Part shown: in pieces, positions 6,645 through 34,603 of the stretch
Layout of the letters: the number at the start of each line of letters is the position of its first letter
Numbering within the stretch: position 1 is the stretch's first letter
Assembly (NCBI GenBank): GCA_018969425.1
Contig: JAGWYJ010000028.1
Span: forward strand, 1 to 42,613
DNA length: 42,613 bases
Source of the DNA: Alphaproteobacteria bacterium
GTDB taxonomy: Bacteria > Pseudomonadota > Alphaproteobacteria > Caulobacterales > Hyphomonadaceae
Direction: 5' to 3'
The notes under the pieces: generated by a model
What the model was told of the DNA's origin: nothing
Database searches by the model: none
The model's input: only the letters and a program-made list of their open reading frames with translations
Made by a program: the position numbers and the translations under genes

Positions 6645-9155
6645 ATGAGCAAGCTCATGCTGATCGATGCGACCCACCCGGAGGAGACCCGGGTCGCCGT
6701 CGTTTCAAACGGACAAATTGAAGATTTCGATTTCGAGGCCCGGGACAAAAGACAGCTCCGGGGCAATATCTATCTCGCCAAGGTGACCCGCGTAGAGCCC
6801 TCGCTCCAGGCGGCGTTCGTCGAATATGGCGGCAATCGCCACGGTTTTCTGGCGTTCAGCGAAATCCATCCGGACTATTATCAGATCCCGAAAGAGGATC
6901 GCGACGCACTGATGGCCGAGGCCGCGGACGAAGCGCGCTCGGCGGGCGGCGGCGACGACGAGGATGACGGAGAGGAAGACGACGAAGGCGAGGCCGAAGA
7001 GGTCATCCGCCGCAACGCGGCTCACTTTCAGCGCAAATACAAGATTCAGGAGGTCATCCGCCGCCGTCAGGTGATCCTGGTTCAGGTCGTCAAGGAAGAG
7101 CGCGGCAACAAGGGAGCGGCGCTGACGACCTACCTCTCGCTTGCCGGTCGTTATTGCGTGCTGATGCCTAACACAGCCCGAGGCGGCGGGATTTCCCGTA
7201 AGATCACCAACGCCGCCGATCGGCGTCGCCTCAAGAAGATCACATCCGAATTCGAGGTTCCTCGAGGCGCAGGCCTGATCGTGAGAACGGCCGGAGCCAA
7301 ACGCACCAAGCTCGAAATCCGCCGCGACTTCGAATATCTGACCCGCCTGTGGGAGCAGATTGTCACCCGTACGATGGAATCCATCGCTCCGGCCCTGATC
7401 CACGAAGAGGGCCATCTGGTTCTGCGGGCGGTCCGCGATCTCTATGACAAGGATGTCGAGCAGATCATTGTCGAAGGCGAGGAGGCGTTCACCGAAGCGC
7501 GCAATTTCGTCCGCATGCTCATGCCGAGCCACGCGAGGAAAGTGACGCTCCACGCAGAGACCCCTCCCCTCTTCGTCACCACTGGGGTCGAGGACCAGCT
7601 GGAGAGCATCTTTTCGCCGGTCGTGCAGCTGCCCTCGGGCGGCTATATCGTGATCAATCAGACCGAGGCCCTTGTCGCCATCGACGTCAATTCGGGCAAA
7701 GCGACCCGTGAGCGCAATGTCGAGACGACAGCGCTCAAGACAAATCTGGAGGCCGCCACAGAGGCGTGCCGTCAGATGCGTCTTCGGGATCTGGCGGGCC
7801 TGGTCGTAATCGACTTCATCGACATGGAGGAGACCAAGAACAACCGCGCCGTCGAAAAGCGCATGAAAGACAGCCTGAAGATAGACCGGGCGCGGGTGCA
7901 GACGGGTCGGATCAGCCAGTTTGGTCTGTTCGAAATCTCACGCCAGCGTCGCCGAGCGGGCGTCCTCGAACTGTCCAGCGAGGTCTGCGACCACTGCGCC
8001 GGGACGGGTCGCGTCCGGGCGATCGGATCAGCCGCTCTCCAGCTGCTCAGAACCATTGAAGCGAGAGCTGCAGACGATCGCGTCGATACGATCAATGTTC
8101 AGGCGCCGCCCGAAGTGGCCCTGTACATCCTCAATGAAAAGCGTCCCTCGATCGCGGCCATTGAAGCGACCTGCCATGTGACGGTCCGCATAGAAGCCAA
8201 CTCGGGTCACAAGCCTGGCGAGTATCTGATCGAAGCCAGCGCGGATGGGGAGCCTGTTCCCTACAAGCCCATCAAGCCGGTTGATTACGCCAAACTCCAC
8301 CCCGTCCCGCCCCCGGCGCCCGGAGAGGAAGAGGAAGAGACCGACGAGGAGCTCGACGAACTCGAGGCCTCGGAGGACGAGGACGTCGAAGACGAGGCAG
8401 ACGACGTCACATCGGATGATGAAGATAACGACGAGGACGCCTCGCGAGCCGATGCGGACGAGGATGACGGCGACGATCGTCATCGCCGCGAGGACGGACG
8501 CAAGCGAAGAGGACGCCGGGGAGGACGCCGCCGCAGGGGAGGACGCGAGGAAGTCGCTTCCGAAGAGACCCCGCAGACAGACGTCCCATCTCCTGAGAGC
8601 GCCTCGGAGGATGCGCGTTCTGGCGGACGCGGGCGTCGCCGCCGGGGCGGGAGAGACCGCGATGGCGGGCGCACCCGCATTCCGGATATCGCAGCCGACG
8701 GCGGCGAGCGGCTGGATGCGATCGCATCTGCGCCCTTCCTGATCGCCGCGCCCATCGATGAGGCCAGCGAGGAGGAGGCGACAGCCTCCGCAGCGGACCA
8801 GACCGTTTCCGCCGCCGCCGAGACGCCCCCCCTGCCTCCGATCGCACCTGAGGCGCCTCCCCCGCCCGTGACGTCGGAAGCCGAAAAAACTCCGGTTGAG
8901 ACAGCTCTTGAACACGAAATCGCCTCATCCGACCTGCAGCCTGACGCTGAGCCCATCGCGCCGCCCGCGGCGCCGACGGTCAGCCTGGAGGTTGAGAATG
9001 CGGGAACGGGAGATGCGGCGACTGAAGAGACTGAGCGCGCCGATGCGGGCGAGACAGCTCGCGAGCGGAGCCATCCGCTTCATGGCGTGGTCATCGAGCC
9101 CGAGCCTAAAACGCCGCGAAAAACCGGATGGTGGTCGCGGCGTCGGTCCGGCTGA
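6645..9155 (+). CDS. rne: Ribonuclease E
   Basis: The 836-residue endoribonuclease that initiates mRNA decay and rRNA/tRNA processing, and scaffolds the degradosome. The catalytic half shows an S1 domain (about 35-160) interrupted by an acidic insert (about 95-120) as in other alphaproteobacteria, a 5'-sensor region, and DNase I-like catalytic aspartates D347 (AIDVNSGKATRE) and D390 (VVIDFIDM). The zinc-link is C448/C451 (CDHCAGTG). From about 560 onward the protein is low-complexity: a long Asp/Glu block, two arginine/glycine-rich RNA-binding blocks and proline/alanine/glutamate-rich linkers. It ends with KTGWWSRR (W829-W830), which resembles the GWW motif that recruits PNPase in Caulobacter. 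The ATG at 6645 follows AAGGA at 6632, placed inside a 12-bp palindrome. M48 and DsbA-like genes follow on the same strand. Confidence 0.97.
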   Translation: MSKLMLIDATHPEETRVAVVSNGQIEDFDFEARDKRQLRGNIYLAKVTRVEPSLQAAFVEYGGNRHGFLAFSEIHPDYYQIPKEDRDALMAEAADEARSAGGGDDEDDGEEDDEGEAEEVIRRNAAHFQRKYKIQEVIRRRQVILVQVVKEERGNKGAALTTYLSLAGRYCVLMPNTARGGGISRKITNAADRRRLKKITSEFEVPRGAGLIVRTAGAKRTKLEIRRDFEYLTRLWEQIVTRTMESIAPALIHEEGHLVLRAVRDLYDKDVEQIIVEGEEAFTEARNFVRMLMPSHARKVTLHAETPPLFVTTGVEDQLESIFSPVVQLPSGGYIVINQTEALVAIDVNSGKATRERNVETTALKTNLEAATEACRQMRLRDLAGLVVIDFIDMEETKNNRAVEKRMKDSLKIDRARVQTGRISQFGLFEISRQRRRAGVLELSSEVCDHCAGTGRVRAIGSAALQLLRTIEARAADDRVDTINVQAPPEVALYILNEKRPSIAAIEATCHVTVRIEANSGHKPGEYLIEASADGEPVPYKPIKPVDYAKLHPVPPPAPGEEEEETDEELDELEASEDEDVEDEADDVTSDDEDNDEDASRADADEDDGDDRHRREDGRKRRGRRGGRRRRGGREEVASEETPQTDVPSPESASEDARSGGRGRRRRGGRDRDGGRTRIPDIAADGGERLDAIASAPFLIAAPIDEASEEEATASAADQTVSAAAETPPLPPIAPEAPPPPVTSEAEKTPVETALEHEIASSDLQPDAEPIAPPAAPTVSLEVENAGTGDAATEETERADAGETARERSHPLHGVVIEPEPKTPRKTGWWSRRRSG

Positions 9156-9194
9156 GTTCGTGACCGCGGGATCGGGGCCGGGAAGGACAGGACG

Positions 9195-10541
9195 ATGAAG
9201 GCGTTCAAAACCCTCGCCCTGACACTGGCGGGTCTCGGAGTTCTCTCCTCGGCGCCCATGGCGAACGCCCAGGGGGTGATCAGGGATGCGGAAATCGAGG
9301 CGATCCTCCGCACCTATTCGGATCCGATCTTCGAGGCTGCCGGCCTCAAGCCCTCGGACGTCGACCTGTTCATCATCAGCGATCCGTCCCTGAACGCCTT
9401 CGTCGCCGGGGGGCAGAGAGTTCATCTCAATACCGGACTGATCATGGCCTCAGAGCGGCCTGAGGAGCTCAAGGGCGTCATAGCCCATGAGACCGGCCAT
9501 ATCGCCGGCGGACACAATGTGACGCGCCGACAGGCCATGGAGGCGGGCAACTTCACCTCCATGATATCGATCGGACTCGGAGTGCTGGCGATCGCCGCCG
9601 GCGCCCCGGATGCGGGGATGGCCCTGATTGGCAGCGCTCCGCAGTTCGGACTACTGACCCTTTTCAAATACACCCGCAACGAAGAGAGCTCAGCCGACCA
9701 GTACGGTCTGACCTTTCTTGAAAAAACCGGTCAGTCGGCAGACGGTCTCGTCGCGTTCATGGAGCGCTTCCGCTATCAGGAGCTGATGTCGGAATCCCGC
9801 AGGGACCCGTATTTCCGTTCGCACCCCGTTTCGACCGACCGCATCGGAATCATGCGTTCAAGGGCGGCGGAGATCTCAGCCAAAGCCTCAGCCCAAAGTG
9901 AGGAAGCCGTCGATCAGCTGGCGATCATGAAAGCCAAGCTCGTCGGATTTCTTCAGCCCGCCTCGCGCGTATTCTCCAAGTACCCGAAGTCGGACACATC
10001 GATTCCGGCGCGCTATGCGCGAGCCATCGCCGCCTACAGAGCCCTCGACATCAAGGCGGCGACCCTCGACACGCAAGCGCTCATCAACGACTTCCCGGAC
10101 AATCCCTACTATCACGAACTTATGGGTCAGATCCTGTTCGAGAACGGTCGGATAGCGGAATCAATCCCCCCGCATCGACGATCCGTGGAGCTGGCCCCGG
10201 AGCAGGCTCTGCTCAAGGTCAACCTCGCCCGCTCTCTGGCGGAGACCAAGGACAACGACAATCTCAAGGAAGCCGAAGGGCTTCTGATCGACGCCCTGGT
10301 GCTCGAGCGGGACAACGCATTCGCATGGAACCAGCTGGCCCGCGTCTACGCCCGACAAGGCAGGGTCGGGGATGCGGACCTTGCGACCGCCGAAGAGGCC
10401 TACGCTGTCGGCGACATTCAGAGGGCGTTCGTGTTCTCGAAGAGAGCGTCCTCCAAGCTCGATCCGTCGACGCCCAACGGCCGGAGAGCCTCGGACATCG
10501 CCGCCATAACCGATCCCAGACTGAACGGCCGACGCGGCTGA
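9195..10541 (+). CDS. Periplasmic M48 metallopeptidase with C-terminal TPR region (BepA-like)
   Basis: A 448-residue exported zinc protease. Its signal peptide (1-26, ending ANA-Q) is followed by an M48 domain with HETGH (H98, E99, H102) and the third ligand E164 in NEESSAD (E164 and D168 fit ExxxD). A hydrophobic, glycine/alanine-rich stretch (about 124-155) separates the two ligand regions. Residues from about 255 form helical repeats consistent with TPRs, as in E. coli BepA, which degrades stalled outer-membrane proteins and assists LptD assembly. That role is inferred by architecture; notably, lptD lies elsewhere in this window. The gene is 39 nt after rne and 33 nt before the DsbA-like lipoprotein, so it may share their transcript. 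Confidence 0.9.
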   Translation: MKAFKTLALTLAGLGVLSSAPMANAQGVIRDAEIEAILRTYSDPIFEAAGLKPSDVDLFIISDPSLNAFVAGGQRVHLNTGLIMASERPEELKGVIAHETGHIAGGHNVTRRQAMEAGNFTSMISIGLGVLAIAAGAPDAGMALIGSAPQFGLLTLFKYTRNEESSADQYGLTFLEKTGQSADGLVAFMERFRYQELMSESRRDPYFRSHPVSTDRIGIMRSRAAEISAKASAQSEEAVDQLAIMKAKLVGFLQPASRVFSKYPKSDTSIPARYARAIAAYRALDIKAATLDTQALINDFPDNPYYHELMGQILFENGRIAESIPPHRRSVELAPEQALLKVNLARSLAETKDNDNLKEAEGLLIDALVLERDNAFAWNQLARVYARQGRVGDADLATAEEAYAVGDIQRAFVFSKRASSKLDPSTPNGRRASDIAAITDPRLNGRRG

Positions 10542-12837: not shown

Positions 12838-13332
12838 ATGGCAGACAAACCCGTCGCTGATAAAGCCGCCAAGATCGACACCGGCCTTCTCCGTGAGATC
12901 GCAGCCATCCTCAGAGAGGCTGATCTCGGCGAGATCGAGATCGAGCAGGGCGGTTTGCGGGTCCGCGTATCCCGAAGCGGCCCGCCCGTCGTCCACAGCT
13001 CCGGCGTTGTCCACGCTCATCCCGCTCCGACCGCGGCCGCAGCCCCCGCGGCGCCCCCCGCTCCGGCCCCGAAACCCTCCGCACCCGCCGGAGACCATCC
13101 CGGAGCGGTTAAGTCTCCGATGGTGGGAACCGTTTATCTTGCGGCTGAGGCGGGAGCGGCTCCCTTCGTCAAGGTCGGCGACGCGGTGAAGGAAGGCCAG
13201 ACGCTTCTTCTCGTTGAGGCCATGAAGACATTCAATCCGGTTCTGGCCCCGCGCGCGGGACGGATTGCCCAGATTATCGTCGCCAACGAGCAGCCGGTTG
13301 AATACGGCGAAGCTCTCATCGTCATCGAATAG
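12838..13332 (+). CDS. accB: Biotin carboxyl carrier protein of acetyl-CoA carboxylase
   Basis: 164 residues. The N-terminal helix-rich part (1-50) binds the carboxylase; a proline/alanine-rich linker (about 60-87) gives mobility; the C-terminal lipoyl-type domain (about 88-164) carries the biotin attachment lysine K130 in EAMKTFN. It shuttles CO2 from AccC to the carboxyltransferase for malonyl-CoA formation. ATG 12838 lies 5 nt after the aroQ stop and the stop lies 7 nt before accC, so the three are co-transcribed. Confidence 0.97.
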
Positions 13333-13339
13333 CGCTCAG

Positions 13340-14698
13340 ATGTTCGAAAAGATCCTCATCGCGAACCGGGGCGAAATCGCCCTCAGGATCCATCGGGCGT
13401 GCCGTGAGATGGGCATCTCCACGGTGGCCGTACATTCCGAAGCTGACAGAAACGCCATGCACGTTCGGCTCGCCGACGAAAGCGTGTGCATCGGACCTGC
13501 GCCGTCAGGGAAGTCGTATCTCAACAAGGCCGCCATCATCTCCGCAGCCCGGATCACGGGCGCGCAGGCTATCCATCCCGGATACGGCTTCCTGTCGGAA
13601 AATGCGAAGTTCGCCGAGATCGTGGAAGCTCACAACATCACCTTCATCGGACCCAAGCCGGATCATATCCGGATGATGGGCGACAAGATCACAGCCAAGG
13701 AAGCGATCGCGCGAGCGGGCGTTCCTGTGGTGCCGGGTTCGCAGGGCGGCGTGGGCGATGTCGATGAGGCGCTGCGCACAGCGGCCGAAATCGGCTATCC
13801 GGTTCTTGTGAAAGCCGCTGCTGGCGGCGGCGGACGAGGGATGAAGGTGGCGCGCTCGGCGGCCGATCTCGAAACCGCCTTTCAGACAGCGCGAACCGAA
13901 GCCAAGGCCGCCTTCGGCGACGACAGCGTCTATCTTGAGAAGTATCTCGAGAAGCCCCGTCATATCGAGATTCAGGTCGTGGCGGACAGCCACGGCAACG
14001 TGATCCATCTGGGCGAACGGGACTGCTCCCTTCAGCGGCGGCATCAGAAGATACTGGAAGAATCCCCCTCTCCCGCTCTGAACGCGGCAGAGCGCGAAGC
14101 GATCGGCAGGACCGTCTGCGACGCGATCGGCAAACTGGGCTACCTGGGGGTGGGAACCATAGAATTCCTGTACGAGGATGGTCGCTTCTATTTCATCGAA
14201 ATGAACACGCGCCTTCAGGTCGAACATCCCGTGACTGAAATGGTCACCGGCGTCGACCTGGTCCGCGAACAGATAAGAATTGCGGCGGGGGCGCCTCTCT
14301 CGCTGACGCAGAAAGATGTGGTGCTCTCAGGTCATTCGATCGAGTGCCGCATCAATGCGGAAAACCCTGAAACCTTTACTCCCTGCCCGGGTCTCATTTC
14401 CGACTTCCACGCCCCTGGCGGTCTCGGGGTGCGTCTCGATTCAGCGGCCTATTCGGGCTACCGGGTGCCTCCTCACTATGACAGCCTGATCGGCAAGCTT
14501 ATCGTGCACGGACGCAATCGCACCGAGGCGCTGATGCGCATGCGGCGCGCTCTCGGCGAGATGGTCGTGGGAGGCGTCGAGACGACCCTGCCGCTTCACC
14601 AGAGGCTGATGAACGAGCCGGACATCCAGAACGGCGACTATGACATCCACTGGCTGGAGACATACCTCCGGACCGGCAAGGGAAGAGCGGGACACTAG
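13340..14698 (+). CDS. accC: Biotin carboxylase subunit of acetyl-CoA carboxylase
   Basis: A 452-residue ATP-grasp enzyme carboxylating the biotin of AccB. Start ATG 13340 gives the canonical [17 protein letters not shown]; an earlier in-frame ATG (13265) lies inside accB and would add unrelated residues. Visible motifs are K116 and K159 (ATP binding), the glycine-rich loop [11 protein letters not shown] (160-170), the [16 protein letters not shown] bicarbonate/biotin region, and [16 protein letters not shown]. No truncation. It forms a unit with accB upstream and aat 4 nt downstream. Confidence 0.98.
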
Positions 14699-14702
14699 GA
14701 CG

Positions 14703-15356
14703 GTGAGCGGGCGTTTCGGCACCGCAGACCTGCTGGACTGCTACCGGCGCGGCGTGTTTCCGATGGCCGACGCCCGCGACGATCCCAGATTATTCCTGGT
14801 GGATCCGGACAGACGCGGCGTCATTCCGCTGGACCGTTTCCATGTTCCGCGAAGCCTCAAGAAGATCGTTCGCGCCGATCCGTTTCAAATCCGCACCGAC
14901 AGCGCATTCACCGCCCTTATGGATCTGTGCGCCGAGAGCGCGCCGGATCGCCCCTCCACCTGGATCAACGCTCCCATCCTCAATCTCTACAGCGCCCTCC
15001 ATCGTGAAGGTTACGCCCACAGTCTGGAGTGCTGGCTCGACGGCGAACTCGTAGGAGGACTTTACGGCGTAAGTCTCGGAGGAGCGTTCTTCGGAGAAAG
15101 CATGGTGTCCCGCCGACCGCAGGCCTCCAAAGTCGCTCTGGTTCATCTCGTCGCGAGGCTGATAGCCGGAGGGTACCGATTACTGGACACTCAGTTTCTG
15201 ACGCGTCACCTCAGTCAGTTCGGAGCCGAGGAAATCGAGCGTGCGGAATTCCAGCGCCGTCTGGCTCACGCACTCGACATCGAGGCTGACTTCGGCCCGC
15301 CCGACGTTCAGCGAACCGGCGCCGAAGCGCTGCAGCTGATCACCCAGACGTCATAG
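14703..15356 (+). CDS. aat: Leucyl/phenylalanyl-tRNA--protein transferase
   Basis: This 217-residue enzyme adds Leu or Phe to N-terminal Lys/Arg of proteins, marking them for ClpS-ClpAP (N-end rule). Motifs include CYRRGVFPMAD near the N-terminus, WINAPILNLYSALHREGYAHSLE and the GNAT-like core GLYGVSLGGAFFGESM with LLDTQFLTRHLSQFG. The start is GTG 14703, which has AGGA (14697-14700) just upstream and lies 4 nt after the accC stop; the ATG at 14640 is buried in accC. Its 3' end overlaps the convergent DUF2155 gene by 49 bp. Confidence 0.95.
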   Translation: MSGRFGTADLLDCYRRGVFPMADARDDPRLFLVDPDRRGVIPLDRFHVPRSLKKIVRADPFQIRTDSAFTALMDLCAESAPDRPSTWINAPILNLYSALHREGYAHSLECWLDGELVGGLYGVSLGGAFFGESMVSRRPQASKVALVHLVARLIAGGYRLLDTQFLTRHLSQFGAEEIERAEFQRRLAHALDIEADFGPPDVQRTGAEALQLITQTS

Positions 15357-15700
15357 ACAGGATGCTCCAGGGCGTTCAGCCCTGGCGAGGATGCGAACAT
15401 CCATCCGGAAAAGAGCGTTTCGCCCTCCTCGCCGTCCGCCGCGGAAACAGGTCGGATCTCGAGAAAGGCAGCCGCCTCAGGCTTGTCCTCCGGAGGGGCC
15501 TGGTGACAGGCGCGCACGGTGATCTTGAGGCGGCCCTGTACGACGCTCTCTCCAACCTTTGCTGAAAGGTCGGACGCGTTTCCGGTGATCTTATCCAGAA
15601 ACCGGAGCCGCGCTCCGGAGCGGGGCTCCAACGCAGAAGCGTTCTGCAGGCAGAGGACAAGAGCGGACAGACACAGCGCCGCGGACGTTTTCCACTTCAT
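15308..15700 (-). CDS. DUF2155 exported protein
   Basis: 130 residues of a conserved alphaproteobacterial family without known function. A signal peptide (about 1-23, ending ASA-L) predicts a periplasmic location. The conserved core includes LFSGWMFASSPGLNALEH and YDVWVISC near the C-terminus, with two cysteines that could pair (one in VRACHQ, one in VISCSA). The start is ATG 15700 because a strong GGAGGT lies 6-11 nt upstream; the in-frame ATG at 15766 lacks a signal-like start. It follows NDUFA12 on the same strand, and the same neighbour set (accC-aat-DUF2155-NDUFA12) is common in alphaproteobacteria, so a link to respiration or envelope is suspected but not shown. Confidence 0.88.
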   Translation of the reverse strand: MKWKTSAALCLSALVLCLQNASALEPRSGARLRFLDKITGNASDLSAKVGESVVQGRLKITVRACHQAPPEDKPEAAAFLEIRPVSAADGEEGETLFSGWMFASSPGLNALEHPVYDVWVISCSASAPVR

Positions 15701-15805
15701 CGGGGCCACCTCCATGACGATCTGTCTAAGTCGGGCCGATCCCGACGTCATCTGCAAAACGCACATGAGGGATACGGTCCGGGCGGACGAAAATACGCTT
15801 CGCCG

Positions 15806-16198
15806 TCAGCCGCCGGGGGTCCACGACTCGTAATCGCCCGAGCTGTCGGCTCTCGCTCCGCCCTCGGCCAGACTGCCCTTGGGGCGATAAGCTCCCAGCG
15901 TGCCTGTCAGGTTCGCACGATGGGGTTTCTCCCATGACTTCCGCGGGAGCGGAGCCGTCGTCGGGGGCTGATCGAAAGTATGGTGCATCCATCCGTGCCA
16001 GTCCGGCGGAACCCGGGAAGCCTCAGCGAGCCCGTTATAAATGACATAACGACGCTTTCGTCCCTCGAGGCTCGGCTTCCGCTCCTCGAAGTAGCGGTTT
16101 CCCTGTTCGTCCATCCCAACCAGAGACGCCCGTCGGCCGATGTCGAAACGCGCCCCGAGGGTCGCTCCGTTCCACCACGTAAACAGCGCCTTGAACAT
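15806..16198 (-). CDS. NDUFA12-family subunit of NADH:ubiquinone oxidoreductase (complex I)
   Basis: 130 residues with the typical start MFKALFTWWNGATLGA and the conserved GRRRYVIYNG-like segment (here RKRRYVIYNGLAEASRVPPDWHGWMHH). NDUFA12 (B17.2 in mitochondria) is an accessory complex I subunit found in alphaproteobacteria and mitochondria but not in most other bacteria, so it supports the taxonomic placement. The C-terminal third is proline/glycine-rich and probably extended along the complex. It is first in a pair with DUF2155 (105 nt apart). Confidence 0.95.
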   Translation of the reverse strand: MFKALFTWWNGATLGARFDIGRRASLVGMDEQGNRYFEERKPSLEGRKRRYVIYNGLAEASRVPPDWHGWMHHTFDQPPTTAPLPRKSWEKPHRANLTGTLGAYRPKGSLAEGGARADSSGDYESWTPGG

Positions 16199-16413: not shown

Positions 16414-18801
16414 ATGTCTGAGACGCGAATCAGGTCCCAGGCCCGCCATCTGGCGCGTGTTCTCGAAACGGGGATCGCGTTGCTGGATGTGGACGCGCCC
16501 TCCTCAACGCTGCCGCGGCGGCTGAATGCGCACTTTACGGCGCTGAGGACCCTCCTCGGAGATGGAGAGGTGGCGGACCGGCTGTGCGACGCGATCCGCG
16601 CGCGCCGCATGAGCCCGATCGCGCCTCCAGACCGCCTCTCCGGGCCGCGCGCGACCCCTCTGCAGGCTTCAGCGCTTCCTGCAGCGCTGGCGGACGCCGC
16701 CGCAGCCGCGGCCTCGCGCAGCCTCGCCGCGCAGGCCTTTGTGTCCGTCGCGGACGCGCTGGAAACCCTGACCATCGAGACGGATGAAAGCGGACGGCCA
16801 ACCACGGAAGCGCTCGTGGACGCCTTTCGCGCCGGGGCGGACGCCGATCTCATCGAGATGGCGCTATCGGCCCCCGGAGGTCCAAGAGCCGCGGCGATCA
16901 GCCTGCGCCGCCAGGCCGCCCTGTCGCGCGAGCCAGGACGCCAGGTCTGGGAGATCCCGGCGTGGAGCGACCAGACCGCGGCTGACATGGCGAGCGTCGT
17001 CGAGCAGGCGGCGCGAACGCGACTGGCCGTCGAGATCCGCCTGACCGCCTCGTCAGGAGGCTCGGCTCAGTGCGGAGCGGTCATCAACCTCGCGAGATAC
17101 GCTTCGGGCGGGGACGACGATCTTCAGGTGCTTCGCCGGGATGCGGAGGCGGCGTCGAGCCTCGGAGCGGACCTGCGCCTCATCCTCGCGGGTCTGTCGG
17201 CCGCCGTCATGTCCCAGGGCAAGGCCTATGACAGTCCCGAAGGGCTCGATGCGGCCGCCGCCTTTTGCGCCGCAGCGCAGGCAGACGCCTGGAGGACGAG
17301 TCTGGAGCGCCCCTCCTCCGAGGCTCTGCAGTGGATCGTGGCGGAGAGCTGCGGGCCCGACCCGGTCGATCTCCTTCTGACCCAGGAAGACGAGCAGCTT
17401 CCTCACCTCTCGGCCTGTGTGACCGCAGCCCTCGAAGCGGCCGCAACCGAACGTGAAGCGCAGGATGTCAGACTGCGCATCCTGGGGGCTCGCACGCTGG
17501 ATCAGATCGACGGCCTGGAGCGAAGTCGGCTTGAGGCGCGCGGCTTGACGACCGAAGCTCTTGATCGGATCGAGCAGGCTCTGAAGGACGGTCTCGCCTT
17601 GTCCGCAGCGTTCTCACGATGGGTCGTCGGCGACGATGTGATCCGCGAACGCCTGCGTCTGTCACCCGACGCATTCGACACCGACGGCGAGGCCCTTCTT
17701 CGGGCGCTGGGGGTCTCCCAGGCTGAGATCGAGGATGCCCGTCTCGCCGTTCAGGGCCGTCGCCGGCCTGTCTCGAATCCGAAATCCCCCCTCGCGCGCG
17801 TCCTCGCCCGCTCAGACGGAGTGTCGGTCGACGCCCGGATCCGGATGGCGCGAGCCTGCGCGCCCGGCCTCGAGCGCCCCCCTGTGGTGACCCTGCCGGC
17901 GGTCTCGGACCCTGATGGCGCGTCATCGTCCCGACTGAGCGGTCTCAGGCGCGTCATGGCGGAAGGTCTGGGCCTCAGGATGGAGGCGGGACGACCGGGC
18001 GCCGATGCGGACCTGAGGAGCCGCATCGCTGATGCGCGCCGGCGGGCGAGGCTGCCTGCCGGTCTCGAGACTCAGTCCACGCATTTCGACCGCATCCAGC
18101 CTGCGCCGATCGTGATCAGCGAACCGCGTCCTGCAGAGCGACAGCGCCTGCCTGACAGGCGCAAAGGCTACATCCAGAAGGCCAGCGTCGGCGGTCACAA
18201 GGTTTATCTGCACACGGGCGAGTTCGACGACGGAGAACTCGGCGAGATTTTTATCGACATGCATAAGGAGGGCGCCGCCTTCCGGTCGCTGATGAACAAC
18301 TTCGCCATCGCCGTTTCGATCGGCCTTCAGTATGGCGTTCCCCTCGAGGAGTTCGTCGACGCATTCGTCTTCACCCGCTTCGAGCCGGCCGGAGAGGTGA
18401 CGGGCAATGACAGCATCCGGCGCGCCACATCCATTCTCGATTACATATTTCGCGAGCTCGCCGTCTCCTACCTCGGACGCGAGGATCTGGCGGAAGTCGA
18501 CCATGTCTCTGCTGACGGCCTGGGAGGCGGGGAACATGAAGGCGCCGAGCCGCCGCCGGCCGTTCGCCCCGAGCAGCTTATCTCGCGCGGGTTCAGCCGC
18601 GGCGTCCTGCCTGACAACATCGTCCTGTTCGAAAGCCGCAAGCCGACCACGCGAACCGAAACGGAAGCCCCGCCCATACAGCCGCAGCGAAGCTCGGAGT
18701 ATCTGTCGGACGCATGTCCGTCATGCGGACACTTCACGCTCAAGCCGGATGACGGAGTGGCTCTGTGCGAGGCCTGCGGAGCAGTGGTTCAGAGCGCCTG
18801 A
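16414..18801 (+). CDS. Degenerate class II ribonucleotide reductase-like protein (NrdJ C-terminal domain + zinc ribbon)
   Basis: 795 residues; start ATG 16414 follows CGGAGATGATCC. Residues about 583-697 ([20 protein letters not shown] through [18 protein letters not shown]) match the C-terminal region of alphaproteobacterial B12-dependent NrdJ nearly motif for motif. Residues 765-795 form a four-cysteine zinc ribbon (C768, C771, C785, C788) like the NrdJ tail. Upstream, several segments still echo Nrd[15 protein letters not shown] (268-281), [14 protein letters not shown] (377-390), [15 protein letters not shown] (428-442) and [11 protein letters not shown] (471-481). However, the protein is about 400 residues shorter than NrdJ as I recall it, the NxCxE thiyl-radical motif is absent, and the SGAISKT phosphate region is replaced by unrelated residues. 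Reductase activity is therefore very unlikely. It stands alone on + between NDUFA12 and aspS. No cobalamin riboswitch was seen upstream. The true role is unknown. Confidence 0.8.
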
Positions 18802-18861: not shown

Positions 18862-20667
18862 TCAGCTCTTGCGGTCGGCGCCGGCGGTGCGAATGGACAA
18901 CTCCCGCAACTGGCGGGGCGTGACCTCCGAGGGGGCCCCCATCATAAGATCCTGCGCCTGCTGGTTAAGCGGGAAGGCGATCACTTCGCGCAGATTCGAC
19001 ACCCCCGCCAGAAGCATCACGATACGATCAACGCCCGGGGCGGACCCGCCGTGCGGCGGCGCCCCGAAACGAAACGCGTTCAGCATTCCGCCAAACTTCT
19101 CTTCGACCGTCTCGCGTCCGTACCCGGCCAGTTCGAACGCCTTCAGCATGATGTCCGGCTTGTGATTTCGGATGGCGCCCGAGGAGAGCTCCACGCCATT
19201 GCACACGATATCGTACTGGAAAGCCGTGATGCCTTCGATCGTCTCACGATCTTCAGGCCGAAGGGCGAGAAAGGCCTCGTGATCGAAGTTCGGCATGGAG
19301 AAGGGATTGTGAGAAAAATCGATCTTCTTCTCGTCCTCATTCCACTCATACATCGGAAAATCGACGATCCAGCAGAACCGGAACTGGTTCTCCTCGACGA
19401 GCCCGAGCTCGCGCCCGACCCGGTTACGCGCCTCGCCTGCAAACTTGTAGAATGCCCCAGGCCGTCCTGCGACGAAGAAGACCGCATCGCCAACCTTGAG
19501 ATCGAACTGGCGGCGGATCGCCTCGACCCGCTCCGGCCCCAGATTCTTGGCGATCGGACCGGCCCCGCCTTCTTCTCCCTCGCGCCAGAACACATAACCG
19601 AGCCCGGGCTGCCCCTGCCCCTGCGCCCAGGAATTCATCTTGTCGCAGAAGGCGCGCGACCCGCCTCCCGGCGCCGGCAGCCCCCAAACCTCAACCGTCG
19701 GATCTGAGGCCAGCATGGCGGCGAAAACCTTGAACCCGGATCCCCTGAAGGCGTCGGAGACATTCTGCATCTCGAGAGGATTGCGAAGGTCAGGCTTGTC
19801 CGAACCGTATCTGCGGATGGAATCGGCATACCGGATCTGCGGGAACGGCGCATTCGTCACCGGCCGACCGCCCCCGAACTCGTTGAATACGCCCTCCAGG
19901 ACGGGCTCGATGGCGGCGAAAACGTCTTCCTGAGTGACGAAACTCATTTCAAAATCAAGCTGATAGAACTCTCCGGGCGAGCGATCGGCCCGCGCGTCCT
20001 CGTCCCGGAAGCACGGCGCGATCTGAAAATACCGGTCAAAACCGGCGACCATCAGCAACTGCTTGAACTGCTGGGGCGCCTGGGGAAGCGCGTAGAACTT
20101 GCCTGGATGAAGGCGGGACGGCACCAGGAAGTCCCGCGCCCCTTCCGGGCTCGAGGCCGTGAGAATCGGGGTCTGGAACTCCTGGAAACCCTGATCAATC
20201 ATTCGGCGACGCAGCGAGGAGATGATCGCCGATCGCAGGATGACATTGCGGTGGAGGCCCTCCCGGCGAAGGTCCAGAAAGCGGTAGCGGAGACGAATTT
20301 CTTCAGGGTAATCAAGCTCCCCGAACACAGGAAGGGGCAATTCCTCGGCCTCAGACTGAACGACCACGTCGAGGACCCGAAGTTCGATGTCCCCCGTCGC
20401 CAGGTTGGCGTTGCGCGTCCCCTCCTCCCGGGCGACGACCTCACCCGTCAGGGTCACAACGGTCTCGACCCTCAATTTCTCGAGGCGGGTGAACTGCGGG
20501 TTAGAGGGCGTCACCACGCACTGGGTCAGCCCGTAATGGTCGCGGAGATCGACGAACAGCAGCCCCCCATGGTCCCGCTTGCGGTGGATCCAACCCGACA
20601 GGCGAACGGTCCGGCCGACATGCTCCGAGCAGAGCTGACCGCAGGTGTGCGTCCTGTAGGCATGCAT
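18862..20667 (-). CDS. aspS: Aspartyl-tRNA synthetase, probably non-discriminating (Asp/Asn)
   Basis: A 601-residue bacterial-type class II synthetase with an N-terminal anticodon-binding OB domain (1-105), the catalytic core interrupted by a GAD insert (about 290-410), and the closing motif 3 region ([11 protein letters not shown]). Motif 2 is [15 protein letters not shown]. Two positions reported to separate tRNA-Asp-specific from relaxed enzymes carry the relaxed state: H33 (RDHGG, Leu30 in E. coli) and G83 (AREEGTRN, Lys in E. coli), as in Pseudomonas H31/G83. It probably also charges tRNA-Asn with Asp for GatCAB conversion. Divergent from rnd. Confidence 0.96.
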
Positions 20668-31653: not shown

Positions 31654-34392
31654 TCAGAAGTGGATCTGAAGCTCGACGCCCCAGGTCCGCGGAAGGGTCC
31701 GCGTATAGTTCTGATAGTAGTAGCCCACCACGTTGTTCGGCCCCACCGGAAGGGTGGGATTGTAGCAGACATCCGATGCGGTGGTGCACTGCGGAGTGGG
31801 TGTCGTATTCGTCCGCGGGTTCGCCCGGAACGACTGGCTCGCCGAGTCATAGCCGTCGCCGTCGAACACGTTTCGGACGAAACCGATCACCGTGAACACG
31901 CCGTCAGCATCGTTCCAGATCATGCGCGCATCGGTCTGGTCGAACGCCGGCGTGATATCTCCCAGATTCTTGAACACGCTCGAAGTGAAGCTGTCGCGCC
32001 AGTAGTAACTGACGGAAGGCGTCAGCGAGGAGCCGTCCTCGAAGTTGAAGTCGTAGGACGCGTTGAAGGCAACCTTGTTTTCCGGCGACTGCGGAAGGAC
32101 GTTGCCCTCAAGAGACTGCAACGGATTGACATAGGTCGGATCCGTCGTCGGCACTGTCGTGGGCACATCCGGGTTGGAGTAGATCCCGCTCTTGACGATC
32201 TCGGGCTTCAGATACGCGTAGGTGAAGCGCAAGGTCAGATCGTCGATCGGACGCCACACGGATTCAAGTTCGAAACCGGTCGTCTGCACTTCCGGAACGT
32301 TCCTCAGGCTGCTGATCCGGGTCTCGCCCGACGTGCCGGGGTTCAGAACCTCCGTCAGCGGAATCTGAATGTCCGTGTAGGCGTAAAGGAAGGCCGCAGT
32401 GTTGACCGTCAGATCCCACTGCCGGAACTCCTGCTTCCATCCCAGTTCGTAGGAATCCACAAATTCAGGATCTGTTCGCGGGAAAGGCGACATGCTGGTC
32501 GCGTTGAACGCCCCGGTCTTGTAACCGCGGCTGTACTTCGCATAGGTCAGCGTGTCGGATGAGGGCGACCACTCGACGCCCGCCGTTCCGGTCGTCGCCT
32601 GCCACTCTTCAGCCAGCTGACGGGACGACACGCCCGTGACCGGGTTGAAGGTTATGCCGGTCGGGTTGGCGACGGTCGCCGACAGAACGCCCGGCTGAGG
32701 AGCTGTCGTGATCGCCTTGCCGCCATTCCAGGAGTTCTGGGTGATGTTCGCAAACGGAATGCCGCAGATGAGCAGGCAGTTGAGCTCGGCTTCCTCGACA
32801 ATGTTCTTGTTGTCGATCGAGTAACGCAGACCCAGCGTGGCCTTGAACTGGTCGTTGATCTGCCAGTCGAGCTGACCGAAAAGACCGTACGCGTTGTTCA
32901 GGCCGCGGTTGTCCGTGTAGGTCAGGAGCCGGTCTGCGTTGGCGATGTTGGCGCCCGTTATGGTGAATGGCGAGAAGCTGCTCACTGGGGTCGACACAGC
33001 CGCCAGCGGCTCGTTCAGCAGGTGAGTGCGGATCGGCTGACGGAAGTTCTCCTGATACGCGTAGAGACCTGCGATCCACTGCAGCGGACCGCTGCCAGTG
33101 GAGATGAAGTTGAGCTCGTTGGAGAAGAAGGCCCGGTTTTCGTTATAGTCGAGCGTCTGATCAGGGAAGATAGTCCGGGTGAAGGTGCCGGTATTGGACG
33201 GCTGCCCGGCCGAAGTCGCCTTGTAGGTGATGGACTTGACCGGGGTTCCGTCCTGATCGCCCGTCAGATGATACCGATAGAAAATATAGCCCCCGACATA
33301 CTTGATGTCGAAGCCTGGGGCCTCATAGACCATCTCCAGCGCGAAATCGTCGTAATTATCGAGGTCGGCGATACGAGGATAGGAGTCGTTCAGGTCCGTA
33401 TTGCCAACGACCATGCGCGGATTGACGGAAAGAGATCCGGACTGCGTGTAGCTGATAACAGATGCGTTCGGCGTGCACCCAAGACCATTCTGCAACGCCG
33501 TCGTGCAGTAAGCCCAGGTCGGCTGAGGAAGAACGCCGCCGGCGTTGAAATTGCGGTTATAAGGAGCGTTCGATCCGCCTCCGGTCCGCCCGCCGGGAGG
33601 TCCGGCCTGCGTGTAGCGGCCCGAGGTGTACTTGGTCCACCAGCTGAAATTCTCACCGATGTCGCCTTCGAACTGAACCTCGGCGTTCCAGTTCTTGATG
33701 TTGTAACCCTCGGTGTCGTTCGTTCCGTGGTTATAATAGACGCCCTCGTCGCGAACTTCCTTGTAGGCCGTCACGCGTCCGCGGAGCCAGTCTTCGATCA
33801 GCGTTCCCGACATCGAGAAGCCGACTTCTTTCTGGTCATAATTTCCGAAACCGACCTTGAACTCGCCCTTGAAATCCTCAGTGGGACGCTTCGAGACGAT
33901 GTTCAGGGCGCCGCCGACCGAGTTTCGGCCATAGAGCGTTCCCTGCGGTCCGCGAAGGACCTCAATGCGGTCGATGAACAGATTATCCCGCCCCGCGATG
34001 GAGGCGAAGGACTGATAGACGCCGTCCGTATAGTTGGCGACGCCCGGCTCGGCCCCGAAATTGTTGGTGACGCGACCAACGCCGCGAAGCGTCACGCGCT
34101 CGTTGGCGGCGGTGTAGGACAGGCCGGGGGTGAAGTTCGTGAGGTCGGTAATGGTGTTGATGCCGAGCTCGTCGCGCATCTCCGACGTCACCGCGGTCAC
34201 GGCGACCGCAACGTCCTGAACCGTCTCTTCACGCTTGTTGGCCGTGACGACGACCACCTCGCCCTTGCTCTTGTCAGCGACCGCCTTGGCTTCGGCCGTC
34301 TGCTCTGCAGGGGCCGGGGTCTGCGCCATAACCGGCATGGCGAACCCTAAGGCCGCCAGACTCACAAGCGACAATCGCTTTCCAAACAACAT
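31654..34392 (-). CDS. TonB-dependent outer-membrane receptor
   Basis: A 912-residue receptor. Signal peptide 1-23 (MAQ cleavage region), TonB-box-like EVVVVTANKREETVQDV, then a plug domain (about 45-165, with VTLRGVGRV, IDRIEVLRGPQGTLYGRNSVGGALNIVSKRP) and a beta-barrel ending in the required aromatic residue (LQIHF). The start is ATG 34392 because GGAGGAGAG lies upstream; the upstream ATG would place hydrophilic residues before the signal. Alphaproteobacterial receptors of this size import siderophores or other scarce nutrients, but the substrate cannot be read. No TonB, ExbB or transporter genes are adjacent. It shares the region with the TPR gene, divergently transcribed. Confidence 0.93.
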   Translation of the reverse strand: MLFGKRLSLVSLAALGFAMPVMAQTPAPAEQTAEAKAVADKSKGEVVVVTANKREETVQDVAVAVTAVTSEMRDELGINTITDLTNFTPGLSYTAANERVTLRGVGRVTNNFGAEPGVANYTDGVYQSFASIAGRDNLFIDRIEVLRGPQGTLYGRNSVGGALNIVSKRPTEDFKGEFKVGFGNYDQKEVGFSMSGTLIEDWLRGRVTAYKEVRDEGVYYNHGTNDTEGYNIKNWNAEVQFEGDIGENFSWWTKYTSGRYTQAGPPGGRTGGGSNAPYNRNFNAGGVLPQPTWAYCTTALQNGLGCTPNASVISYTQSGSLSVNPRMVVGNTDLNDSYPRIADLDNYDDFALEMVYEAPGFDIKYVGGYIFYRYHLTGDQDGTPVKSITYKATSAGQPSNTGTFTRTIFPDQTLDYNENRAFFSNELNFISTGSGPLQWIAGLYAYQENFRQPIRTHLLNEPLAAVSTPVSSFSPFTITGANIANADRLLTYTDNRGLNNAYGLFGQLDWQINDQFKATLGLRYSIDNKNIVEEAELNCLLICGIPFANITQNSWNGGKAITTAPQPGVLSATVANPTGITFNPVTGVSSRQLAEEWQATTGTAGVEWSPSSDTLTYAKYSRGYKTGAFNATSMSPFPRTDPEFVDSYELGWKQEFRQWDLTVNTAAFLYAYTDIQIPLTEVLNPGTSGETRISSLRNVPEVQTTGFELESVWRPIDDLTLRFTYAYLKPEIVKSGIYSNPDVPTTVPTTDPTYVNPLQSLEGNVLPQSPENKVAFNASYDFNFEDGSSLTPSVSYYWRDSFTSSVFKNLGDITPAFDQTDARMIWNDADGVFTVIGFVRNVFDGDGYDSASQSFRANPRTNTTPTPQCTTASDVCYNPTLPVGPNNVVGYYYQNYTRTLPRTWGVELQIHF

Positions 34393-34470
34393 TGTACTCT
34401 CTCCTCCAGGTTCGGCGCTTCTCCGAGCCCTCCCCTTGAAATCAGGAGATCGCCGGCAATGACGCTCTGA

Positions 34471-34481
34471 TACAATTTGTA
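34471..34481. promoter_or_regulatory. Palindrome in the TonB receptor upstream region
   Basis: TACAATTTGTA (34471-34481) is an 11-bp perfect palindrome about the central T, 79 nt upstream of the receptor start. It could be an operator. Its halves (TACAA/TTGTA) are the same pentamers as in the hppD/marR sites but in the opposite order. Without further copies this is a weak candidate. Confidence 0.35.
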
Positions 34482-34603
34482 ACAGATCCAAATTGGCGGT
34501 GTGTTGTCCCGGACGTCAAGTCATAGCTGCGATGAGCGTAGCTATTCGCGCGTCAGGGAGTGATAAAAAGACACAGCTATCCGGCGCCACGTCACAAGAC
34601 GTG

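Follow-up and report, generated by a model that had tools for sequence, protein, structure and literature searches.

The stretch of DNA analyzed here (the window) comprises 42,613 nucleotides of contig JAGWYJ010000028.1, from an alphaproteobacterium of the family Hyphomonadaceae (assembly GCA_018969425.1). At 16414..18801 on the forward strand it carries an open reading frame (ORF) that begins with ATG and encodes 795 amino acids (aa), as a sequence-only reading had already stated. That reading took the gene for a paralogue of nrdJ, encoding class II ribonucleotide reductase (RNR), that had arisen by duplication, lost catalysis and kept its C-terminal domain. Of this interpretation the NrdJ origin, the loss of catalysis, the retained C-terminus and an RNR-like remnant upstream stood up to comparison with other genomes, and the duplication did not. 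The window protein (P0001) and its own genome (G000) are compared below with related genomes and with an intact NrdJ used as reference (L107). The gene and its parts are as follows.

16414..18801, + strand: degenerate NrdJ, a putative RNR pseudoenzyme, 795 aa from an ATG start (ORF, PRK07562 and TSCPD matches, orthologues, dN/dS)
16711..16938, + strand: insert 1 (aa 100-175), aligned with about 302-395 of L107; the stretch is absent from the short class II RNR on contig C24
16939..17415, + strand: first part of the barrel remnant (aa 176-334), with the thiyl cysteine and its partner cysteine lost (AlphaFold2, catalytic columns, Foldseek)
17416..17754, + strand: insert 2 (aa 335-447), all-helical, matching 712-826 of 7b9p
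17776..18051, + strand: second part of the barrel remnant (aa 455-546), with SGAISKT replaced
18139..18489, + strand: TSCPD / IscU-like domain (aa 576-692), where degenerate proteins have a median 80% of residues in common with intact NrdJ; dN/dS 0.000-0.052
18700..18798, + strand: zinc ribbon (aa 763-795), with four zinc-type cysteines kept and two redox-pair cysteines lost, by comparison with PMC5704485

Domain matches and predicted fold

Residues 574-749 match positions 967-1143 of PRK07562, the model of alphaproteobacterial NrdJ (E 6.7e-96), and Pfam TSCPD (PF12637) covers residues 591-683 (E 2.3e-10; 41.1 bits against a gathering threshold of 22.8), bearing out the NrdJ-like C-terminal region that had been read from the letters. 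TSCPD is the sole Pfam match above cut-off, and a PHROGs search returned the NrdJ C-terminus again and nothing further. The PRK07562 score of 322 bits lies below the curated full-protein cut-off of 1737, so the protein does not qualify as a working NrdJ. With 795 aa it is 35% short of the 1222-position model, close to the third that had been reckoned missing. Weak echoes of NrdJ further upstream, in NrdJ order, had also been suspected and were recovered in two ways: phmmer paired residues 335-448 with 712-826 of the NrdJ chains 7b9p/7b9q of R. sphaeroides (E 4.7e-5), and profile-profile alignment (hhalign) of 31 degenerate against 6 full NrdJ sequences aligned 222-792 with 490-1222 (E ~4e-128). 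The latter sets ‘AVINL’, within residues 217-229, opposite ‘ASLNL’ of full NrdJ, the pairing proposed for that segment with ACNLASLNL.

When the window protein is aligned with L107, reference residues 51-100, 201-250 and 601-650 find no counterpart and 151-200 and 251-300 hardly any; a large share of the barrel's first half has been deleted. Two stretches of long NrdJs that are missing from the C24 enzyme (307-399 and most of 704-827 of L107) correspond to approximately 100-180 and 335-447 of the window protein, the C24 enzyme being the only short class II RNR used for this comparison.

An AlphaFold2 model based on 37 sequences, 12 intact NrdJs included, reached a mean predicted local distance difference test score (pLDDT) of 80.9, with strands in the first barrel part at 177-181, 206-210, 220-225, 254-259 and 294-296. 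All 23 Foldseek matches to this model with E <= 0.001 were class II RNRs (best 7b9p, 2.8e-9). Because the alignment held intact enzymes, modeling was repeated with degenerate sequences only (25 sequences); this control (pLDDT 71.7) gave similar strands to approximately residue 523, modeled TSCPD poorly, and again yielded 23 class II RNRs with E <= 0.001. Structure prediction, suggested beforehand as a check for an RNR-like barrel upstream of the C-terminal domain, was therefore favorable in both models. As template modeling scores (TM-scores) are low (0.34 to 7b9p when normalized by query length, and no higher than 0.36 under either normalization among the rows listed), the upstream part is best described, on these predictions, as a shrunken remnant of the RNR barrel rather than a complete one.

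Lost catalysis and a conserved C-terminal domain

Catalytic columns were examined in an alignment of 59 degenerate rows (56 distinct sequences) and 52 full rows, from which L097 (a chimera) and L100, L147, L150, L156 and L158 (short or cut frames) were left out; four degenerate rows (L091, L102, L145 and L157) have an open 5' end, and the full rows likewise include partial ones. The thiyl-cysteine column of the NxCxE motif holds a cysteine in 0/59 degenerate rows and its glutamate column a glutamate in 0/59; the asparagine survives in two (G019 and G022), not in the window gene. All three residues are present in 51 of the 52 full rows, the remaining one being gapped there. The only degenerate row with an NxCxE string (G020) has it away from the aligned place. 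The column equivalent to C134 is a gap in every degenerate row (uninformative in the four 5'-open ones), and that equivalent to C333 is a gap in 57 and alanine in two, these active-site cysteines being numbered as in T. maritima NrdJ. The string SGAISK is absent from all 59 rows, and the lysine column of SGAISKT holds lysine in one (L109). Full rows keep the examined catalytic residues, apart from gaps in one or two. The absence of both motifs, previously noticed in the window protein, is thus a feature of the degenerate rows at large.

The four-cysteine ribbon predicted at C768/C771/C785/C788 is present. Across the degenerate rows the last 45 aa contain exactly four cysteines, arranged CxxC..CxxC (59/59), versus six in 51 full rows and seven in one; the L102 row is shifted in the alignment, which puts a zinc cysteine in a redox column. 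Neither the six-cysteine ribbon of intact NrdJ nor the loss of a redox pair had been noticed in the earlier reading. Loderer et al. 2017 identified a C-terminal cysteine pair of class II RNR as redox-active (PMC5704485), and alignment indicates that the two cysteines lost from the ribbon correspond to this pair. Taken together, these comparisons indicate that the window protein derives from NrdJ and has lost its catalytic centre.

The TSCPD domain has followed a different course, and the strong C-terminal retention proposed earlier is evident: its median identity is 0.80 between degenerate and full proteins, as against 0.83 among full and 0.89 among degenerate ones. Outside it, median identity of degenerate to full proteins is lower: 0.40 for the ribbon, 0.28 and 0.19 for inserts 2 and 1, respectively, and 0.15-0.17 for the barrel remnant, a region in which full proteins are 0.68-0.80 identical to one another. 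Equating TSCPD with the IscU-like region of class II RNRs is our own reading. The domain of the window protein (576-692) contains no cysteine, and a role as an IscU-like Fe-S scaffold was set aside, the cysteine ligands being absent.

Ratios of nonsynonymous to synonymous substitution (dN/dS, omega) were calculated by the NG86 method for seven pairs; dS exceeds 1 in four of them, making those values rough. Whole-gene omega is 0.027 (G000/G002), 0.042 (G012/G003), 0.057 (G012/G013), 0.075 (G001/G006) and 0.077 (G014/G008), rising to 0.147 (G000/G012) and 0.279 (G000/G023) in the pairs most diverged in protein; for TSCPD it is 0.000-0.052 across pairs. No internal stops occur in any listed match to the degenerate gene, and frames are complete in all 31 genomes of the relatives set that carry it. 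Because omega is low across the gene and lowest in TSCPD, the whole protein is judged to be under purifying selection, with TSCPD most constrained. The usual marks of a pseudoenzyme (catalytic residues lost, a remnant of the fold kept, purifying selection) are therefore all found here.

Genomic setting, copy number and spread

The genes around the degenerate nrdJ provide anchors for comparing its position among genomes.

12838..15766, mixed strands: accB, accC and aat (+) and a DUF2155 gene (-), by Pfam and synteny; conserved upstream block
15806..16198, - strand: NDUFA12 gene, by Pfam; divergent neighbor and syntenic anchor
18862..20667, - strand: Pfam class II D/K/N-type tRNA synthetase with GAD domain, in our reading aspS; convergent neighbor and syntenic anchor

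The order accB-accC-aat-DUF2155-NDUFA12-nrdJ-aspS is found, whole or in part, at most degenerate loci with enough flank, and intact nrdJ occupies the same arrangement, whole or in part, in a number of cases (L104, L108, L112, L117, L127, L146, G028, G032 and G040). NDUFA12-nrdJ-aspS recurs in the intact loci L108, L112, G100 and G153 and in many degenerate ones, making the two forms, which are also homologous along the protein, orthologous by descent, and within one family (f4) intact (G100, G153) and degenerate genes (G071, G143, G066, G061, G056) share a single locus. Exceptions are the intact genes of G027, G035 and G036 and the degenerate gene of G016, which are placed elsewhere, and other intact nrdJ genes (e.g. 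several in Bradyrhizobium) lack such neighbors in the stretch compared. Elsewhere in the window, 31654-34491 (-) encodes a TonB-dependent receptor (Plug and beta-barrel domains) unrelated to the degenerate NrdJ.

The genome to which the window belongs (3.25 Mb, 99.98% complete) yields one TSCPD match and one match to the window protein; it contains no full NrdJ and no second TSCPD gene, and PF02867 is found only in NrdA (C13) and in the short RNR on C24. The search for a full NrdJ or NrdAB elsewhere in the genome, suggested by the sequence-only reading, returned NrdA and NrdB but no full NrdJ. Among 41 genomes (G000 and 40 relatives), 31 have the degenerate form, six the full form and none both; neither was recovered in four (G007, G015 with a partial match, G025 and G039). 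A barrel of NrdA or another RNR was found in 39 of the 41; the remaining two genomes have completeness values of 73% and 86%. In a survey of 140 genomes of the order, based on the matches listed, with shorter frames not all checked singly, at least 32 contain a frame of 1190 aa or more that matches TSCPD, and a second TSCPD match beside the long NrdJ was seen in 0/32. The proposed duplication is thus not supported: with no second TSCPD gene or full NrdJ, the old nrdJ locus retained, and no co-occurrence of the two forms, it looks, on these comparisons, as if nrdJ itself changed in place and was not copied. Formally, nrdJ could still have been duplicated long ago, the two copies then being lost in a complementary fashion.

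Several further reductases were encountered. The C24 enzyme (L004:6008-7783; G000:C24:16007-17782; 591 aa) is of class II type, scores above the TIGR02504 cut-off, lacks TSCPD and adjoins genes that by eye look galactose-related; a PF02867 match of its pattern (3-521) occurs only in G000 and G002 among the 41 genomes. Other RNR barrels (PF02867 2-523, frames of 582-828 aa) are present in G029 (C1:1007477-1008877), G013, G014, G018 and G031, all with the degenerate gene, and in G025, which is without it; the one in G029 is above the TIGR02504 cut-off and has its own TSCPD match. One NrdJ frame of 1117 aa with NPCSE (L208; G095:C44, ~26339) ends in an unusual C-terminus that gives the impression of a frame broken shortly before its end.

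Degenerate proteins range from ~740 to 1060 aa, versus ~1190 to 1400 aa for intact NrdJ. Named carriers include Hyphomonas sp. ih12, Henriciella marina, Maricaulis maris, Maricaulis salignorans, Marinicauda pacifica, Caulobacter sp. HMWF025, and species of Phenylobacterium and Brevundimonas. The number of times catalysis was lost depends on the tree. One inferred from insert 2, TSCPD and tail (without the chimeric L097 and without G100 and G153) places 59 degenerate rows in one clade (100/99). A flanking-gene tree (51 rows; D_L105, which has no accC, dropped) requires the state to switch twice between the degenerate and the full form. With TSCPD alone (70 rows after our thinning; G095 left out) three switches are required, a single origin not being rejected by the approximately unbiased test (p-AU 0.37) and f4 as one clade being rejected (p-AU 0.005). 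The chimera itself (L097:11-2119; DDSO01000136.1, from the metagenome-assembled genome ‘Brevundimonas sp. UBA2388’) reads as an intact-type barrel to TSCPD followed by a Brevundimonas degenerate tail, and is probably a misassembly through near-identical TSCPD DNA.

In the literature, CCNA_01966 of C. crescentus appears as NrdJ under nucleotide reduction in a B12 scheme (PMC6538847) and as a vitamin B12-dependent RNR (PMC5869019). In a Caulobacter vibrioides control genome TSCPD scores above cut-off and nothing exceeds that of PRK07562, a result that is only suggestive, as G036, an intact-type enzyme, also falls below the PRK07562 cut-off. CCNA_01966 is probably of the same dead kind.

Possible roles and relation to known reductases

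A link to deoxynucleotide (dNTP) supply was sought upstream of the gene. A tandem NrdR-box motif was trained iteratively from one consensus, two boxes of the window's own genome and 21 nrdA upstream regions, with a threshold at the 99% level of 1350 shuffled sequences (555 random genomic stretches give nearly the same level). Rows without 300 bases upstream, 5'-open rows, and L097, L100, L147, L156 and L158 were left out; some starts were taken as the first ATG, and some upstream windows are probably shifted. Tandem NrdR-type boxes exceed the threshold in 27/49 full nrdJ upstream regions and in 20/54 degenerate ones (~0.5 expected), the latter including 14 of 15 genes of a Caulobacter/Brevundimonas/Phenylobacterium group that we drew from the tree. 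In the window's own genome nrdA (L005:5483-7339) and nrdB (8684-9733) lie ~1.3 kb apart, each with an NrdR-like box upstream. NrdA (618 aa) and NrdB (349 aa) of this genome both lack an ATP-cone, and the single such domain detected genome-wide belongs to NrdR.

We favor, at a probability of roughly 0.6, the explanation that nrdJ lost catalysis in place and is now retained as an RNR pseudoenzyme beside class I NrdAB, serving as a non-catalytic partner or regulator in dNTP metabolism. The gene stands at the old nrdJ locus, in genomes that also have class I NrdA, and its protein has lost the active-site, thiyl and redox-shuttle cysteines. A reduced barrel, both accessory inserts and the zinc scaffold are left, along with a TSCPD/IscU-like domain that has hardly changed. 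TSCPD and its carrier may act as an oligomer-forming partner or regulator, most likely of the class I enzyme, neither subunit of which carries an ATP-cone in this genome. In the Stackebrandtia class II RNR a C-terminal domain of 150-220 aa is needed for tetramers and hexamers induced by dATP/dGTP, according to PMC5704485. Given this effect, and NrdA and NrdB without ATP-cone, our preferred guess, held loosely, is that the protein scaffolds or regulates NrdAB in response to dNTPs. Its most specific form, in which the dead class II RNR is a trans-acting allosteric subunit of ATP-cone-less NrdAB, TSCPD senses dATP/dGTP by oligomerizing, and the protein thereby acts as a switch or scaffold for NrdAB across much of the Caulobacter/Hyphomonas/Maricaulis group, probably also in C. 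crescentus, is speculative and rather doubtful. A B12 sensor, also considered, seems unlikely, given how large a share of the barrel's first half is missing.

Several observations weigh against the favored explanation. Upstream of the window gene there is no detectable NrdR box (score -3.5), and only three of 12 same-genus relatives tested (G008, G014, G003) pass the threshold, alignment suggesting that the site is wearing away in others; the boxes could also be a leftover from the enzyme stage. The gene is dispensable in G025 and G039, where the NDUFA12-aspS locus lacks it, and a TSCPD match is absent from nine of the 140 genomes of the order, six of them of one genus. The dATP/dGTP effect comes from one distant enzyme, requires the whole C-terminal region, and may not transfer.

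An alternative that we regard as possible, if improbable on balance, is a pseudo-NrdJ whose TSCPD performs a job unrelated to RNR, for instance with a cell-cycle, respiratory or metal-handling partner, catalysis having been dropped once this was the sole need. That TSCPD is nearly as similar between dead and living enzymes as among living ones suggests a surface or ligand common to both, and NrdR boxes are missing from the window gene and from most genes tested outside the Caulobacter-type group; within that group, however, the boxes tie the gene to dNTP supply. A split class II RNR, with the degenerate protein as an NrdJb-like half (TSCPD and zinc finger) serving a separate chain such as the C24 enzyme, is unlikely. 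The window's own genome does carry a short class II-type RNR without TSCPD, but a further non-NrdA barrel occurs in only seven of the 31 degenerate-bearing genomes, at least that of G029 has its own TSCPD, and the redox pair is absent throughout.

Still less probable is a decaying, functionless pseudogene not yet removed. The barrel resembles that of intact enzymes no more than at background level and the gene has been lost in some lineages, but uninterrupted frames, omega of 0.027-0.077 in the five closer pairs and the high TSCPD identity among degenerate rows speak against decay. Least credible of all is a fusion of the NrdJ C-terminus to an unrelated N-terminal protein: Pfam alone would allow it, with TSCPD by itself above cut-off, but the profile alignment runs through 222-792 in NrdJ order, both NrdJ inserts are recognizable, and even the degenerate-only model retrieves class II RNRs first.

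Under the favored explanation, a retained pseudoenzyme beside NrdAB, a dead enzyme with a near-frozen domain points to a function of that domain separate from catalysis. According to PMC9669993, no role has so far been described for the IscU-like part of class II RNRs, and a family that naturally lacks the catalytic part makes that role directly testable. The finding also bears on dNTP supply in Caulobacter, CCNA_01966 being published as NrdJ and probably dead. No description of a dead NrdJ family was found in the CC-licensed PMC literature searched.

A comparable fate, with RNR activity lost and another role acquired by a large subunit, is known from the beta-herpesvirus R1 homologues, which differ from the degenerate NrdJ in being viral and of class I type, are not known to contain TSCPD, and represent an unrelated event. 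The closest relative is alphaproteobacterial NrdJ itself (PRK07562; 7b9p, R. sphaeroides), with which the degenerate form has in common the chromosomal place (in many genomes), the order of domains, the inserts, TSCPD and the scaffold of the zinc ribbon; it differs in being shorter and in lacking the active site, the redox pair and much of the first half of the barrel. The C-terminal Cys-rich domain of dimeric class II RNRs (PMC5704485; the ‘IscU-like domain’ of Burnim 2022, PMC9669993) likewise consists of a TSCPD/IscU-like region followed by a four-cysteine zinc ribbon, although the degenerate protein has lost the electron-shuttle pair among the six cysteines and retains no active site that could be reduced. 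NrdJb, one chain of the split class II enzyme, similarly combines an IscU-like domain and zinc finger in a chain without active site, according to PMC9669993; in contrast to NrdJb, the degenerate NrdJ is preceded by a barrel remnant, has lost the redox pair, and resides in hosts most of which, among those examined, have no further class II chain.
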